A stretch of DNA of 41,666 nucleotides from positions 1 through 41,666 of the forward strand of contig JAGAJO010000022.1 of assembly GCA_017626015.1 (NCBI GenBank). Reading direction: 5' to 3'. Under the pieces are notes generated by a model. It did not search any database. It was given only the letters and a program-made list of their open reading frames with translations, and was not told the DNA's origin. Shown here in pieces: positions 405 to 4,866 of this stretch (within the stretch, counting starts at the first letter, position 1; the number at the start of each line of letters is the position of its first letter). A program made the translations under genes and the position numbers. Origin of the DNA: Ruminococcus sp. GTDB lineage: Bacteria > Bacillota > Clostridia > Oscillospirales > Ruminococcaceae.

Positions 405-1220
405 ATGGAGATCAGAGATATAAGAGTTATGGTCGGCGGATTATCGGCGCAGGCATATTCCATAGCGGAGTTTTTGAAATCAAAGGGGATAAGCGTGATG
501 AGCGTGGAAAAAAATCCGTTGGCTATCCAGTTTGAGGCTTCAAAACATATGCTTGATGCAGTCATAATACCTAACAGTATACAATTTCCCGAGCTGCTTT
601 GTGAAAATCTTAAAAAGATCGACGAAAAGCTTAAATTGGTAATGATTTGCGATACGAATGCAGATGAATATAAAAGCTACGGACAGCTCTCAAGATATCT
701 TGACGTTGAGATAAAAATACCATGTGCGCCGGAACAAATTTATTTTCGGCTGGTGGAATGTATTACAGGCGAGATCCATGTTGATCCTAAGATATGTACA
801 CCTTCGGGATCTGCCGAGGACGGTCAGCGTTGCTCTTTCAGCGGCGGAGCAGAGCTGCACAACAGAATTACTGAAATACTGACGCAGCTTTGTATCATGC
901 CGAAATACAACGGTTATAATTATATAAGAGAGGCTGTTAAGCTTGCGATCAGCGAAAACGGAGAATATAAAGGGATATCCAAGGCAATATATCCCGAAAT
1001 AGCAAGAAGGCTTGACGTTACGCCGTCTGGCGTTGAGAGAAGCATAAGGACTGCGATACACCGCTCATGGCCTAAATCCGAGCCTGTCAACCGAGTGGAG
1101 ATTTTCGGGACCTGTGCGCTTCACAGGGAATGGATCCCTACAAACAGTGAATTTATTTTTATTATCGCCGATAAAATAAGCTGCGAGTTTAACGCCTACG
1201 GATATCGCAGAAATGCATAG
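405..1220 (+). CDS. spo0A: Spo0A-family sporulation regulator with degenerate receiver
   Basis: This 271-residue protein has the Spo0A DNA-binding domain at about 143-265. Family landmarks there are YNYIREAVKLAI, the helix-turn-helix around TPSGVERSIRTAIHRSW and the ending PTNSEFIFIIADK. In the family this domain binds 0A boxes and controls entry into sporulation. Residues 1-115 have receiver size and hydrophobic pattern but lack the chemistry. The acidic pair is replaced by GG (11-12), the phosphate-accepting Asp falls on a Pro within DAVIIPNS (about 51-58), and the conserved Lys appears absent. Phosphorelay control is therefore unlikely. The ATG follows AGGAGG at good spacing. It stands alone between hairpins. 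Family assignment is confident; whether it is the cell's main Spo0A or a paralogue is unknown. Confidence 0.82.
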   Translation: MEIRDIRVMVGGLSAQAYSIAEFLKSKGISVMSVEKNPLAIQFEASKHMLDAVIIPNSIQFPELLCENLKKIDEKLKLVMICDTNADEYKSYGQLSRYLDVEIKIPCAPEQIYFRLVECITGEIHVDPKICTPSGSAEDGQRCSFSGGAELHNRITEILTQLCIMPKYNGYNYIREAVKLAISENGEYKGISKAIYPEIARRLDVTPSGVERSIRTAIHRSWPKSEPVNRVEIFGTCALHREWIPTNSEFIFIIADKISCEFNAYGYRRNA

Positions 1221-1767: not shown

Positions 1768-2103
1768 TTACTGAAGGATCCCTTCACTGCCGTCGTTTTC
1801 GTCATCGTCAAAATCAAACATTTCCTCTATGCGTTCCATAAAAATTGCGCCGATCTTGTCGTAAAGTTCTTCGTCCTCTATGGAAGCCATGATCTCTTCT
1901 CCGGTCTGCTCGTCAAACTCCGATCTGAGGATCACAACCTCGCCTGAATCCTCAAGCATACCCTCGGCGTCCTCCTCATAATAGGGAGTAAGAGCATAGT
2001 ATCTCTCTCCTTCGTAATCCATACAGTCAAGCAGTTCAAAGGTCTGTTTATTACCCATTTCATCTTCAAGTTCGTAGAGATCCGGCGTGTACTCGTTATC
2101 CAT
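1768..2103 (-). CDS. DUF1292 family protein
   Basis: This is a very acidic 111-residue cytoplasmic protein. The pattern YELEDEMGNKQTFELLD, then ERYYALTPY and a GEVVILR strand is that of DUF1292, a small family common in Clostridia and Bacilli, often near ruvX and other housekeeping genes. Its function is unknown. The start ATG (2101-2103) has GGAGG at good spacing. A near-consensus promoter lies directly upstream and diverges from the RNA unit on the other strand. The C-terminal tail is almost all Asp and Glu. No enzyme motif or membrane segment is present. Confidence 0.8.
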   Translation of the reverse strand: MDNEYTPDLYELEDEMGNKQTFELLDCMDYEGERYYALTPYYEEDAEGMLEDSGEVVILRSEFDEQTGEEIMASIEDEELYDKIGAIFMERIEEMFDFDDDENDGSEGILQ

Positions 2104-2182
2104 AATAAATACCTCCGTTTCGGTAAATCTGACTTTTGCTTATATACTCGGCGAAAAACAGTTTGACCGCCGCACCATTTAT

Positions 2183-2211
2183 ATTGTAGCATACTTTACA
2201 AAATAAGTCAA
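2183..2211 (-). promoter_or_regulatory. Sigma-A promoter of the DUF1292 gene
   Basis: On the minus strand TTGACT (2211-2206), 17 bases, then TACAAT (2188-2183). It is back to back with the plus-strand promoter at 2271, with about 60 bases between the two -35 boxes. Confidence 0.7.
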
Positions 2212-2270
2212 GATTATATTTGTAAAAGTAATATTAAATATAAAATCAACAAAAAAGTTGAAAAAAACTA

Positions 2271-2299
2271 TTGACAAATTACAAAAAGTGTGGTATATT
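2271..2299 (+). promoter_or_regulatory. Strong sigma-A promoter of the RNA/repeat unit
   Basis: TTGACA (2271-2276), exactly 17 bases, then TATATT (2294-2299). This is one of the best promoter matches in the window. No gene with a ribosome site follows closely, so the product is probably an RNA starting near 2306. Confidence 0.75.
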
Positions 2300-2305
2300 T
2301 ATATC

Positions 2306-2560
2306 AAGGAAAAAGAAAGGAACAAAACCTAAAGGACGAAAGTTCATGGGGGAATGTTCCGGGAGGTTTCCTCGGAAAGAGAAAGCAGATAAAGGTTCCG
2401 TCAGTAACCGGCAGTTCGCCGCAATGGGAACGGGTTTACCGAAGGAAAGAATAAAGCTGATGTTTCCGGTCATCGCAGATCTGTTCGGGCGAGAGTAAAT
2501 GTACCGTAGTCGGTGCCAAGCTTTTAAGCGGTTTTAACAGGCGGTATAAACTCCGGATAG
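2306..2560 (+). ncRNA. Candidate structured noncoding RNA
   Basis: From the predicted start the sequence becomes G-rich and hairpin-dense. GGAACA (2319-2324) pairs with TGTTCC (2355-2360) and encloses GGAC-GAAA-GTTC (2334-2345), a GNRA tetraloop. AGG-TTT-CCT, flanked by CCG/CGG, follows at about 2359-2375. GTTCC (about 2395-2399) pairs with GGAAC and encloses CGGC-AGTTC-GCCG. CGG-GTTTA-CCG and ACCG-TAGT-CGGT come next. The one overlapping frame (2271-2498) starts inside the -35 box and has no ribosome site. Clostridial RNA classes such as raiA or ROOL are possible comparators; I could not match it to any by eye. The 3' limit is uncertain because transcription may run to 3591. Confidence 0.55.
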
Positions 2561-2574
2561 GTTTAATGAGATAT

Positions 2575-3532
2575 GAAAGGAGCGAGTCCGATGGACGTAT
2601 CAGAGAGCCTTACGAGTATTCAGGACTCGGCGGTTTCTTAAAAAAATTAAGGATAGGGACTTAGACGTAAGGGCTGACAGATCCATACTATAGAAGTTAT
2701 TTAAGAAGAAGCTGCTGGGTTGACGGGACAGATTTACTAATTAGCTTATGCAGTTTGAATACTCGGACATTTACAATTTAATAAATTCGGTGTAGGGGAG
2801 CGGTTTATATGATTCGTTTCAAGAGGTATCCGAATATTATTTAGACAGGAGTGTTTCCGATGCACAATTTCAGTTTTACTTTGAAAGAAAAATAAATTGA
2901 AAGAGTGAGTCCGATGTAATATTTAGCTTTACAGCTTAACGGTTTTACTTGATACAATTTCTTATAAGGAGTGGTGCATTATGAAAGTTAAAATGCACAA
3001 AAGACCTTTGAATATCTGAGAGATTGGAGTGAGTCCGCCTAGACATTTACGAGCGAAAGCTCTTTTCGGATCTTGACAGTAAAGCGGCACAGCCGCAGAG
3101 AATATATTTCTTCAGGGAGTGGTGCAGTATGAAAATGCACAAAATGCTTTTGAATATCTGAAAGACAGGAGTGAGTCCCAAGAAGAACTTTGCTTAGCTT
3201 CCGAGCTTAGAGAAGCATTCCGACAGTTGCATTATTGCAGATCTTATTTGAAAGGCGAGAATACCAATGGCTTGATTGATTGTGACACTGCAAAATATTT
3301 TGAAAGGAAATAGATCCCATGGAAAGGTAATCTTTAAAATGTGATTATTCTGCCGAAAGGAAATATGACCAATGGAATAGTTTTAACAGTACGGACACAA
3401 AATTTACTTTGAAAGGTATGAGTCCAAAATACAGTTCAGGTTTTAATGCGATATTCTGAGTAAAGGATGTTTTACCAATGGCATAAAAAAGCGTTTTCGG
3501 ATCAAATTTTAAGAAAGGCATAAGTCCAATGG
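2575..3532 (+). repeat. Array of about 13 degenerate 20-nt repeats
   Basis: The motif GAAAGG-RNNGAGTCC-NATGG recurs at 2575, about 2793 (weak), 2844, 2899, 2964, 3022, 3113, 3164, 3302, 3355, 3411, 3461 and 3513. The last five starts are 50-56 bases apart. Every copy resembles a ribosome site followed by ATG, but the frames close at once or after 10-16 codons. In another frame the motif reads E-R-S-E-S-D/N-G. Copies at 2964-3040 and 3111-3182 share a longer unit of about 70 bases, readable as YENAQ-x-x-FEYL-x-D-x-SES. The array is therefore either a decayed multi-copy coding repeat or a designed RNA repeat. Confidence 0.6.
3119..3313 (+). CDS. Possible small protein or remnant inside the repeat array
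   Basis: This 64-codon frame starts at GTG after GGGAG. It begins VVQYENAQNAFEYLKDRSES and continues with a hydrophilic, helical-looking stretch ending in FERK. The upstream repeat copy (about 2969-3040) encodes a related but stop-broken version. This could be the last intact member of a decayed family, or a chance frame in repeat DNA. No known domain is recognised. Confidence 0.25.
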   Translation: MVQYENAQNAFEYLKDRSESQEELCLASELREAFRQLHYCRSYLKGENTNGLIDCDTAKYFERK

Positions 3533-3561
3533 TTTAATTTGAAATACGATTATGTTTACAT

Positions 3562-3592
3562 AAAAAGCAGGCTTCAGGGTCTGCTTTTTTTA
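3562..3592 (+). terminator. Terminator of the RNA/repeat unit
   Basis: AAAAAGCAG and CTGCTTTTTT pair around GCTTCAGGGT, with the T tract in the plus direction. It closes a transcription unit of about 1.29 kb that began at the 2271 promoter. Confidence 0.65.
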
Positions 3593-3605
3593 TGAGTTTT
3601 TCATC

Positions 3606-3652
3606 AAAAAAAGCTGCTGCATTTTGCGGATCATACGCAGTTATGCAGCAGC
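3606..3652 (-). terminator. Terminator of the GH5 gene
   Basis: Read on the minus strand, GCTGCTGCA and TGCAGCAGC form a nine-bp stem followed by TTTTTTT, starting nine bases after the glucanase stop codon. Confidence 0.75.
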
Positions 3653-3660
3653 CTGTTCGG

Positions 3661-4866
3661 TTATCCCTTTACGACTTCATAGTCCTCTCCGCTTACTGCT
3701 TTTTGCAGGGCGGGAATAAAGTTTTCACGGTTCCATGTGCAGGTCTCACGGTTGAAGATCGTACCGGGATCCCAGAGAAATGCAGGTATGCCTATATCGT
3801 GGGTGAGCTTGGTAAGCTTTTCACAGAAGAATGTAACGCTCGCCGGCTCGTTTCCGCCGGTGCCGTATTCACCGATAATTACGGGTATGCCTTTGTCAAT
3901 GAAGTTTGTTTTGAGCTTGGATATCTGGCTTTCCATAGTACGCACCTCTATGTCTGTACCCCATTCGTACTGATTTTCACATACGCAGAATTCCCAAGGA
4001 GTATAGTAATGTACGGAAAGTATGCATCTGTTTTCCGGGTCGTTCGGCATTACATACTGGTTTGAGATCGATTTGTCAATGTCCGTCCAGTAGCCTGCGA
4101 TAAGCAGATGTCTTTTGGGATTGTTTCCTCCGCCGGAACGTACAAGATCCACGAAAGCCTGATTCATTTTGTTGAGGAGGGCGTATGCGTCGTTTGTATT
4201 AAGCTCGTCAAAACCTACCTCGTTCATGGACTCGAAAATCAGCCTGTCTGAGTAGTTTTCAAATCTTTCGCAGATCTGTGTCCATATACTTGAGTATTTT
4301 GCATACCATGTATCGTAGTCATTCATGGCTGTTTCTCTTATCCATGCGCCGAAATCCGGATCGCCGCCGCCGTCGTGGTGAAGATTTATGATGACGTACA
4401 TATCAAGATCGTATGCGTAATCCACAACCTCCTGTACTCTGTCCATCCAGCTCTCATCGATGTTGTAGTTCTCGTCCAGATGATCTCTCCAGGTAACGGG
4501 GATCCTTACGGCGTTGTAACCGTCCGCCTTGAGTGTTTCAAATACTTCCGGAGTAGTCATAACGTTGCCCCAGAGGGTCTCGTCCACATTTTCGGAATGC
4601 TCGTTAACCTTTCCGTCGCCGTCCCTGTCAGCGTTGCATACGTCCAGGGCGTTGCCGAGGTTCCAGCAGAGCTTCATCTCTCCACAAAGCTCCATGGAGG
4701 AGATATCCCGCATCTCTTCCGGCTGGGATCTGTCCTTTGCGTCCTCTGCAGCTGATTGTGTCCCTCCCGAGCTGCTGTCCCCGGGATCTTTCTTTCCGCA
4801 CGCCGTAAAAGCAGTGCAGCACATTGCCGCAGCCGCCAGAAGCGCAATTAGTTTCTTTGAATGCAT
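3661..4866 (-). CDS. GH5 family endoglucanase lipoprotein
   Basis: This 401-residue secreted enzyme should hydrolyse beta-1,4-glucan or a related polysaccharide. A lipoprotein signal ends at the lipobox FTAC (Cys23), followed by a Ser/Gly/Asp-rich spacer, so it should be anchored outside the membrane. The GH5 barrel follows: WNLGNALD (68-75), RIPVTW (121-126), INLHHDGG (160-167), acid/base Glu216 in SMNE, HYYTPW (286-291), and nucleophile Glu333 in IIGEYG. An acidic insertion DRDGDGKVNEHSE (80-92) resembles an EF-hand or dockerin calcium loop. There is no dockerin or carbohydrate-binding module, so it is a cell-bound rather than cellulosomal enzyme. It has its own promoter and terminator. GH5 membership is firm; the exact substrate is not known. 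Confidence 0.9.
   Translation of the reverse strand: MHSKKLIALLAAAAMCCTAFTACGKKDPGDSSSGGTQSAAEDAKDRSQPEEMRDISSMELCGEMKLCWNLGNALDVCNADRDGDGKVNEHSENVDETLWGNVMTTPEVFETLKADGYNAVRIPVTWRDHLDENYNIDESWMDRVQEVVDYAYDLDMYVIINLHHDGGGDPDFGAWIRETAMNDYDTWYAKYSSIWTQICERFENYSDRLIFESMNEVGFDELNTNDAYALLNKMNQAFVDLVRSGGGNNPKRHLLIAGYWTDIDKSISNQYVMPNDPENRCILSVHYYTPWEFCVCENQYEWGTDIEVRTMESQISKLKTNFIDKGIPVIIGEYGTGGNEPASVTFFCEKLTKLTHDIGIPAFLWDPGTIFNRETCTWNRENFIPALQKAVSGEDYEVVKG

Follow-up and report, generated by a model that had tools for sequence, protein, structure and literature searches.

What might a transcription unit of about 1.28 kb do when no long ORF lies between its promoter and its terminator? The question is posed by positions 2271-3592 of a 41,666-nt stretch of Ruminococcus sp. 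DNA (GCA_017626015.1, contig JAGAJO010000022.1, positions 1-41,666, forward strand), here called the window, whose coordinates are used throughout. Its near-consensus promoter (2271-2299, + strand; TTGACA, 17 nt, TGG-TATATT) was identified by motif scan and comparison with relatives as a strong sigma-A type; it has 11/12 matches, TG precedes the -10 element, and it ranks first of 5 promoter-like sites in 2100-3700, a number of sites that is itself at chance level (shuffle mean 4.1). Together with the A-tract upstream it shows 84-92% identity to same-genus relatives among the matches listed in the DNA search. It is also 85% alike over 52 nt to the promoter of the EF-Tu (tuf) gene of the same genome; this 52-nt stretch is the sole further DNA match in that genome, and was rejected as another copy of the array since it is just the tuf promoter. 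In relatives, promoters of this kind precede an L10 leader as well as other genes, so strong transcription of the unit is likely. The intrinsic terminator (3562-3592, +) was read by eye as AAAGCAG, a 10-nt loop, CTGCTTT and a T run, and is absent from the scan output because the scan rule accepts loops of 3-8 nt only; terminators called by script are approximate, and in G016 and G025 they look too far downstream. Between these boundaries, a 5' domain (2306-2570, +) is GC-richer (0.475 in 2306-2560 vs 0.365 in 2561-3560) and probably structured, the predicted folding of 2305-2640 being moderately above chance (z -2.36; 3/100 shuffles equally good). Promoter, terminator and GC-richer, hairpin-dense 5' part had all been proposed in an earlier note on this DNA, and these readings hold.

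The remainder of the unit is dominated by a recurrent motif. With up to 3 mismatches, GAAAGGNNNRAGTCCNATG has 10 matches in the whole window, 6 of them inside 2271-3592, against 2.0 expected over the window, and 0/100 shuffles reach 10. The earlier note had counted about 13 copies of a 20-nt motif; the five starts it quoted (3302, 3355, 3411, 3461 and 3513) are all correct and the array is real, but the nature of most of its copies was missed. The motif is a Shine-Dalgarno sequence (SD; GAAAGGAG), 8-10 nt, an AUG and an in-frame stop after 0-17 codons, such that an SD-like GAAAGG(AG) sits at a near-fixed distance 5' of each AUG and a stop follows soon after. By visual reading the unit comprises 12 SD-AUG micro-ORFs, of which a stricter script rule counts 10, and three non-AUG copies; every AUG copy opens a frame that is closed in frame within 16 codons.

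All lie on the + strand. The first, ORF1 (MDVSESLTSIQDSAVS, 2591-2641), has its SD GAAAGGAG at 2575-2582 and is supported by relatives and by a codon test. It is followed by MIRFKRYPNII (2809-2844) and MHNFSFTLKEK (2860-2895), both read by eye and with homologs in relatives; a start-stop element that encodes M alone (2914-2919; ATGTAA in several relatives too); MKVKMHKRPLNI (2981-3019), whose start codon lies within a GTGCAT/ATGCAC hairpin and which is again backed by the codon test; and MKMHKMLLNI (3129-3161). Many micro-ORFs consist of two codons only, and the 3' part of the array, likewise read by eye, runs MA (3267-3275), MER (3319-3330), M (3339-3344; its SD lies inside the MER frame, and it is the least certain of the twelve), ME (3372-3380), MA (3478-3486) and MV (3529-3537), each ending in a stop codon. 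The non-AUG copies, identified visually and in the multi-locus count, are found at 3022-3040 (GATTGGAGTGAGTCCGCCT), at 3164-3182 with AAG at the start-codon place (3180), and at 3411-3429 with AAA there (3427). The earlier verdict of "no real gene" is therefore correct insofar as a convincing long ORF is absent from every frame, and fails insofar as what recurs is a translation initiation region, in an RNA that forms a conserved micro-ORF array. A conserved single protein family was not found in 2271-3592 after frameshift correction, and a long frame-corrected protein was rejected because the reading frame resets at each unit.

The stop codons were then counted across related loci, using 42 of 65 entries (G002b, G024 and G011 were omitted as contig-end cuts or duplicates, as were 20 further L loci whose contigs, judged by length, are those of G loci). 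Strict sites were defined by an SD match of at least 6 nt at an aligned spacing of 6-9, and were chosen without looking downstream. Of 183 distinct strict sites, an in-frame stop lies within 18 codons at 181 and within 3 at 116. The remaining two, with frames of 302 and 390 codons, are ordinary downstream genes. In the other two frames at the same sites, stops within 18 codons number 122 and 136, and those within 3 number 28 and 43. In 500 single-base shuffles of the 150 nt downstream, the corresponding values are a mean of 135 (maximum 155) within 18 codons and 45 (maximum 62) within 3, with the proviso that sites from related genomes are non-independent and that the shuffles ignore kinship. 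AUGs lacking an SD in the same RNAs stop within 3 codons in 151/738 cases. Under a second definition, which considers the 5' side only and excludes ORF1, for 135/177 units the stop comes as the second or third codon following the AUG, at a chance of 0.067 per codon; these early-stopping units show 13 different second codons, and each of the stop codons is used (TAA 71, TAG 37, TGA 27). On both counts (116/183; 135/177) the units answer to the description of a minigene, with an SD at initiation distance, an AUG and a stop within a few codons. In 38/42 loci there are 4-13 SD-AUG sites per RNA. The canonical anti-SD pattern was detected in 3/5 genomes searched, and was not found in the window's own assembly. 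We regard it as very probable, from these sequence comparisons, that the unit is a conserved micro-ORF array in a free-standing RNA gene.

To which bacteria does this array belong, and what accompanies it? When the own genome and 60 relatives were searched at the DNA level, 39/61 matched, many via the promoter only, and the locus is present in 26/28 same-genus relatives, the two misses being assemblies 86% and 80% complete. Scanning a public genome collection for the ORF1 start site yielded 52 stretches. Those kept derive from Ruminococcus, R. albus and R. bicirculans among them, and from a few MAGs of other Oscillospiraceae or Clostridia; 14 were judged false, without individual reading, by organism (other phyla or Bacilli), by absence of the promoter and by absence of motifs under a regex, and one 168-nt fragment was set aside as too short. 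L063, L077, L090 and L107, for which the array regex gave 0 or 1 unit, are the weakest members, and were retained because ORF1, the promoter and a DUF1292-like neighbor or 6S fit. In one MAG (G002), contigs C42 and C30 carry near-identical copies of the array start, by duplication or assembly artifact. With strict filters, a covariance model of ORF1 and its hairpin found 3/297 order-level genomes (the own genome and two of one genus). The exact ORF1 pattern occurs in 17/297 family genomes; since it missed true members with a changed motif, we searched via the conserved divergent neighbor instead, a DUF1292 gene (1768-2103, - strand) identified by neighborhood comparison and present in 118/118 order-level genomes searched. 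On the divergent side of 70 DUF1292 loci, units were found in 10/12 of the own family, 5/9 of a second family, and 0/49 across 18 further families, two of these 49 having just ~400 nt upstream. Two of the five positives in the second family are doubtful, with a single unit each (MQ and MYT). The DUF1292-linked loci from other genera and the second family contain 29 units, all of which stop within 23 codons and 19 within 2; the opposite strand of these stretches, taken as a control, shows the unit pattern once. One genus outside Ruminococcus has a version of ~560 nt with ORF1, two frames of 10-11 aa, and MY.

Just beyond DUF1292 lies a 6S RNA gene (1454-1666, -), a second conserved neighbor that is recognizable by score and neighborhood (41.2 bits, E 5.5e-7; gathering score 46.4). 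6S RNA reaches the gathering score in 7/11 and 16/20 tested loci, including those of array-less families, which suggests that the 6S-DUF1292 pair predates the array. Further out, the gene at 405-1217 (+) has a Spo0A C-terminal DNA-binding domain (residues 155-258), and similar ORFs were seen by eye upstream in some relatives. Downstream genes, read visually at 11 loci, vary in kind and strand, some being common to close relatives. None of the downstream genes is shared by all loci viewed, which makes a cis target unlikely; the RNA probably acts in trans.

The array RNA looks built to load ribosomes, not to make protein. We infer that ribosomes initiate at its SD-AUG sites, and that frames of two or three codons would lead to near-immediate termination or to release of a very short peptidyl-tRNA, so that many initiating ribosomes would be kept busy without protein being made. 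With less certainty, the RNA may act as a sink that takes up or buffers 30S subunits, initiation factors or initiator tRNA. 6S RNA titrates RNA polymerase; such a sink would, in parallel, tune the number of ribosomes free for mRNAs, perhaps with ORF1, its start codon enclosed by a conserved hairpin, gating the array. Both the parking role and the 6S parallel are suggested by anatomy and position. Trans-acting titration of ribosomes or initiation factors is our best guess at function, with a probability of roughly 0.4: the stop statistics and differing downstream genes argue for it, as do covariation and codon selection (see below), and the variable number of units per locus (1-13, median 7, under one rule) would fit a dosage device. 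Should ribosomes load on it, the unit would, to our knowledge, be the first naturally occurring RNA gene to consist of minimal ORFs in an array. The RNA would then also be a candidate regulator of how many free ribosomes are available in bacteria common in gut and rumen.

Phage lambda bar is a minigene and, like axe-txe, a single element. Bacterial minigenes such as that of axe-txe have the same strong SD, AUG, one or few codons and stop, and ribosome loading and release of peptidyl-tRNA are expected of them (accessible part of PMC8708949). Those occur singly and their effects are local or accidental, whereas here a conserved RNA gene is given over to an array and has structure between the units. 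The accessible text of the same paper describes ribosomes engaged by two-codon ORFs with strong SDs, and peptidyl-tRNA released; these minigenes are the most growth-inhibiting, the released peptidyl-tRNA being recycled too slowly. This inhibition supports titration and at the same time leaves tolerance by the cell to be explained, since a highly expressed minigene array would, from that E. coli work (PMC8708949, as far as accessible), be expected to be toxic. Two further observations count against titration: the peptides of 10-18 aa are conserved at the amino-acid level, for which a pure ribosome sink would have no use, and 102 distinct units in the 42 loci have no AUG at all, bearing AAG (59), AAA (17) or CCN (26) at the start-codon place. 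When these non-AUG units are read as frames started by AAG, 98/102 stop within 18 codons in frame 0 vs 87 and 79 in the other frames, with no preference for frame 0 within 3 codons (14 vs 29 and 14).

RNA structure is conserved around the units. A hairpin formed by CGAGTCC (2583-2589) and GGACTCG (2623-2629) spans the ORF1 start codon (2583-2629, +). Covariation says little about it because it is nearly invariant; its 3' arm persists whichever of two reading frames it falls in (15 and 25 of the 43 distinct ORF1s, with 3 lacking the arm), which separates structure from coding. The hairpin 3' of ORF1 (2651-2684, +), comprising helices 2 and 3 of alignment A1 (28 sequences), covaries: across the alignment 91.1% of cells pair vs 80.2% when shuffled and at most 44.1% when slid, and 52 cells are changed on both sides vs 17.3 shuffled, these being located in the hairpin after ORF1. 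Counted as pairs, neither those changed on both sides (7 vs 5.5 shuffled; 84/500) nor pair types (19 vs 17.1; 81/500) are raised in this alignment. A second covarying element is an H-type pseudoknot (3192-3216, +; GCUU/GAGC and GCUUCC/GAGAAGC, with one second-helix pair broken here), which follows a non-AUG copy within modules of ~216 nt in some species. In an alignment that took in 24 of 26 collected sequences, 99.2% of cells pair and 32 are double-changed vs 10.2 shuffled; the double changes all fall in the second helix, the first being nearly invariant, and pair types are not raised (10 vs 11.0 shuffled; 496/500). The comparison with relatives proposed in the earlier note thus finds covariation in both the hairpin after ORF1 and the pseudoknot. 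Start codons of the 10-12-aa frames also tend to lie in hairpins: 21/46 have an exact arm of at least 5 vs 12% in shuffles, and 11/46 one of at least 6 vs 2.5%.

Where a pseudoknot lies ~13 nt downstream of a non-AUG copy, that copy may allow 30S to bind but not to initiate. Taken as a whole, the more ambitious proposal would be a new bacterial RNA class, encoded beside 6S RNA, whose tandem start-stop micro-ORFs titrate ribosomes in trans, such that one locus buffers both transcription and translation machinery and the pseudoknot-followed non-AUG units are dedicated 30S parking sites; we put it forward tentatively, as a doubtful combination. The same structures could instead be what the RNA exists for. 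Ribosomes stationed every 50-100 nt would then act in cis, shielding an otherwise untranslated RNA from ribonucleases or Rho while its 5' domain, hairpins and pseudoknots do the real work. Such protection would accommodate the covarying structure, and even AUG-less units could serve it; that ribosome loading on minigenes protects mRNA has been proposed (PMC8708949, accessible part). It leaves unexplained both why frames should stop after one or two codons and why peptide codons should be under selection, and on this evidence we consider it unlikely.

That selection is best seen in ORF1, which is open and in frame in 65/65 entries, themselves chosen by its start site, and which is represented by 43 distinct DNA sequences encoding 41 distinct peptides of 16-19 aa. 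In one entry, L159 (G307), ORF1 seems to begin with GUG, the frame being kept. Using minimum spanning trees of equal-length sequences, rather than a real phylogenetic tree, 45/101 single-base codon changes in ORF1 are synonymous vs 20.8 expected, and 34/69 vs 15.3 in the 10-12-aa family, most members of which end in N-I; across the longer micro-ORFs the excess of synonymous changes is 2.2-fold. Codon-level selection on the longer frames is thus evident from sequence. The RNA might accordingly be read as a polycistronic mRNA for functional short peptides, namely ORF1 and the basic 10-12-aa peptides, in which the two- and three-codon frames would be reinitiation relays or spacers. The position of ORF1 as the first frame would suit this, as would the stop codons that lie close 5' of the next SD in several places. 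It is an unlikely reading all the same, given that 116/183 strict sites encode at most 4 residues, that 43 ORF1 sequences yield as many as 41 peptides, and that the ORF1 hairpin arm is preserved in either of two frames.

CsrB/CsrC-type sponge RNAs contain repeated GGA-containing units in varying number. The array RNA resembles them in its many AAGGA/GGA motifs and variable copy number, and could likewise be a sponge for an RNA-binding protein (e.g. CsrA) or a small RNA, the SD-AUG-stop pattern being incidental to a protein-binding motif. Here, though, the units are SD-AUG-stop frames, and in-frame stops that draw on all three stop codons after varied second codons are unexpected of a protein site, which makes this explanation highly improbable. 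Size, strong promoter and clostridial host would suit a divergent form of one of the known RNA classes (raiA, ROOL, OLE, GOLLD, tmRNA, 6S or RNase P). To this reading we give almost no credence, since no Rfam family matches the array RNA here or in related loci, tmRNA coexists with it in relatives, RNase P is located elsewhere in the own genome and 6S lies next door.

At the gathering score no Rfam family, including OLE, ROOL and GOLLD, was matched anywhere in the window, and a relaxed scan of 2200-3700 gave five matches, all to unrelated families below their cut-offs; the link to large clostridial RNA classes raised in the earlier note finds no support here. In related loci the Rfam matches are to 6S, tRNA and glmS only. 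No match to raiA was obtained either, a class that may be missing from Rfam (PMC12286853, in its accessible part, built its own model). Like the array RNA, raiA, ROOL, OLE and GOLLD are large structured RNAs of Bacillota and others that were long overlooked; they differ in that the array RNA lacks an Rfam match and that micro-ORF arrays are unmentioned in the accessible part of PMC12286853. Nor did literature searches within an open-access library, including passages of PMC7580957, PMC6429828, PMC8708949 and PMC12286853, bring up a description of such an RNA. The idea of a long, free-standing, structured and apparently undescribed RNA is supported by the comparison with relatives, in which the locus is conserved and covaries. 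It is a kind of gene that is missed by both ORF-length annotation and Rfam.

6S RNA shares with the array RNA the character of a free-standing structured RNA, and is its close neighbor, but is a separate gene on the other strand: there is no match to 6S (RF00013) in 2200-3700, and no sequence or structural relation between the two was found. Similarly, tmRNA is a structured RNA with an internal short frame, whereas the frames of the array RNA start at AUG with an SD. ARAGORN finds no tmRNA or tRNA in the window, nor does the tmRNA family RF00023 reach its gathering score there. In the relatives search, tmRNA occurs in 25/31 genomes, and 13/18 same-genus relatives searched contain both the array RNA and tmRNA above the cut-off; the array RNA was therefore rejected as a tmRNA replacement. 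The own assembly, which is 99.5% complete, has no tmRNA over the cut-off and no SmpB, perhaps through an assembly gap or through loss. By visual reading, the motif ACAATTGAATA recurs in the transcripts of G010, L184, L186 and L188.
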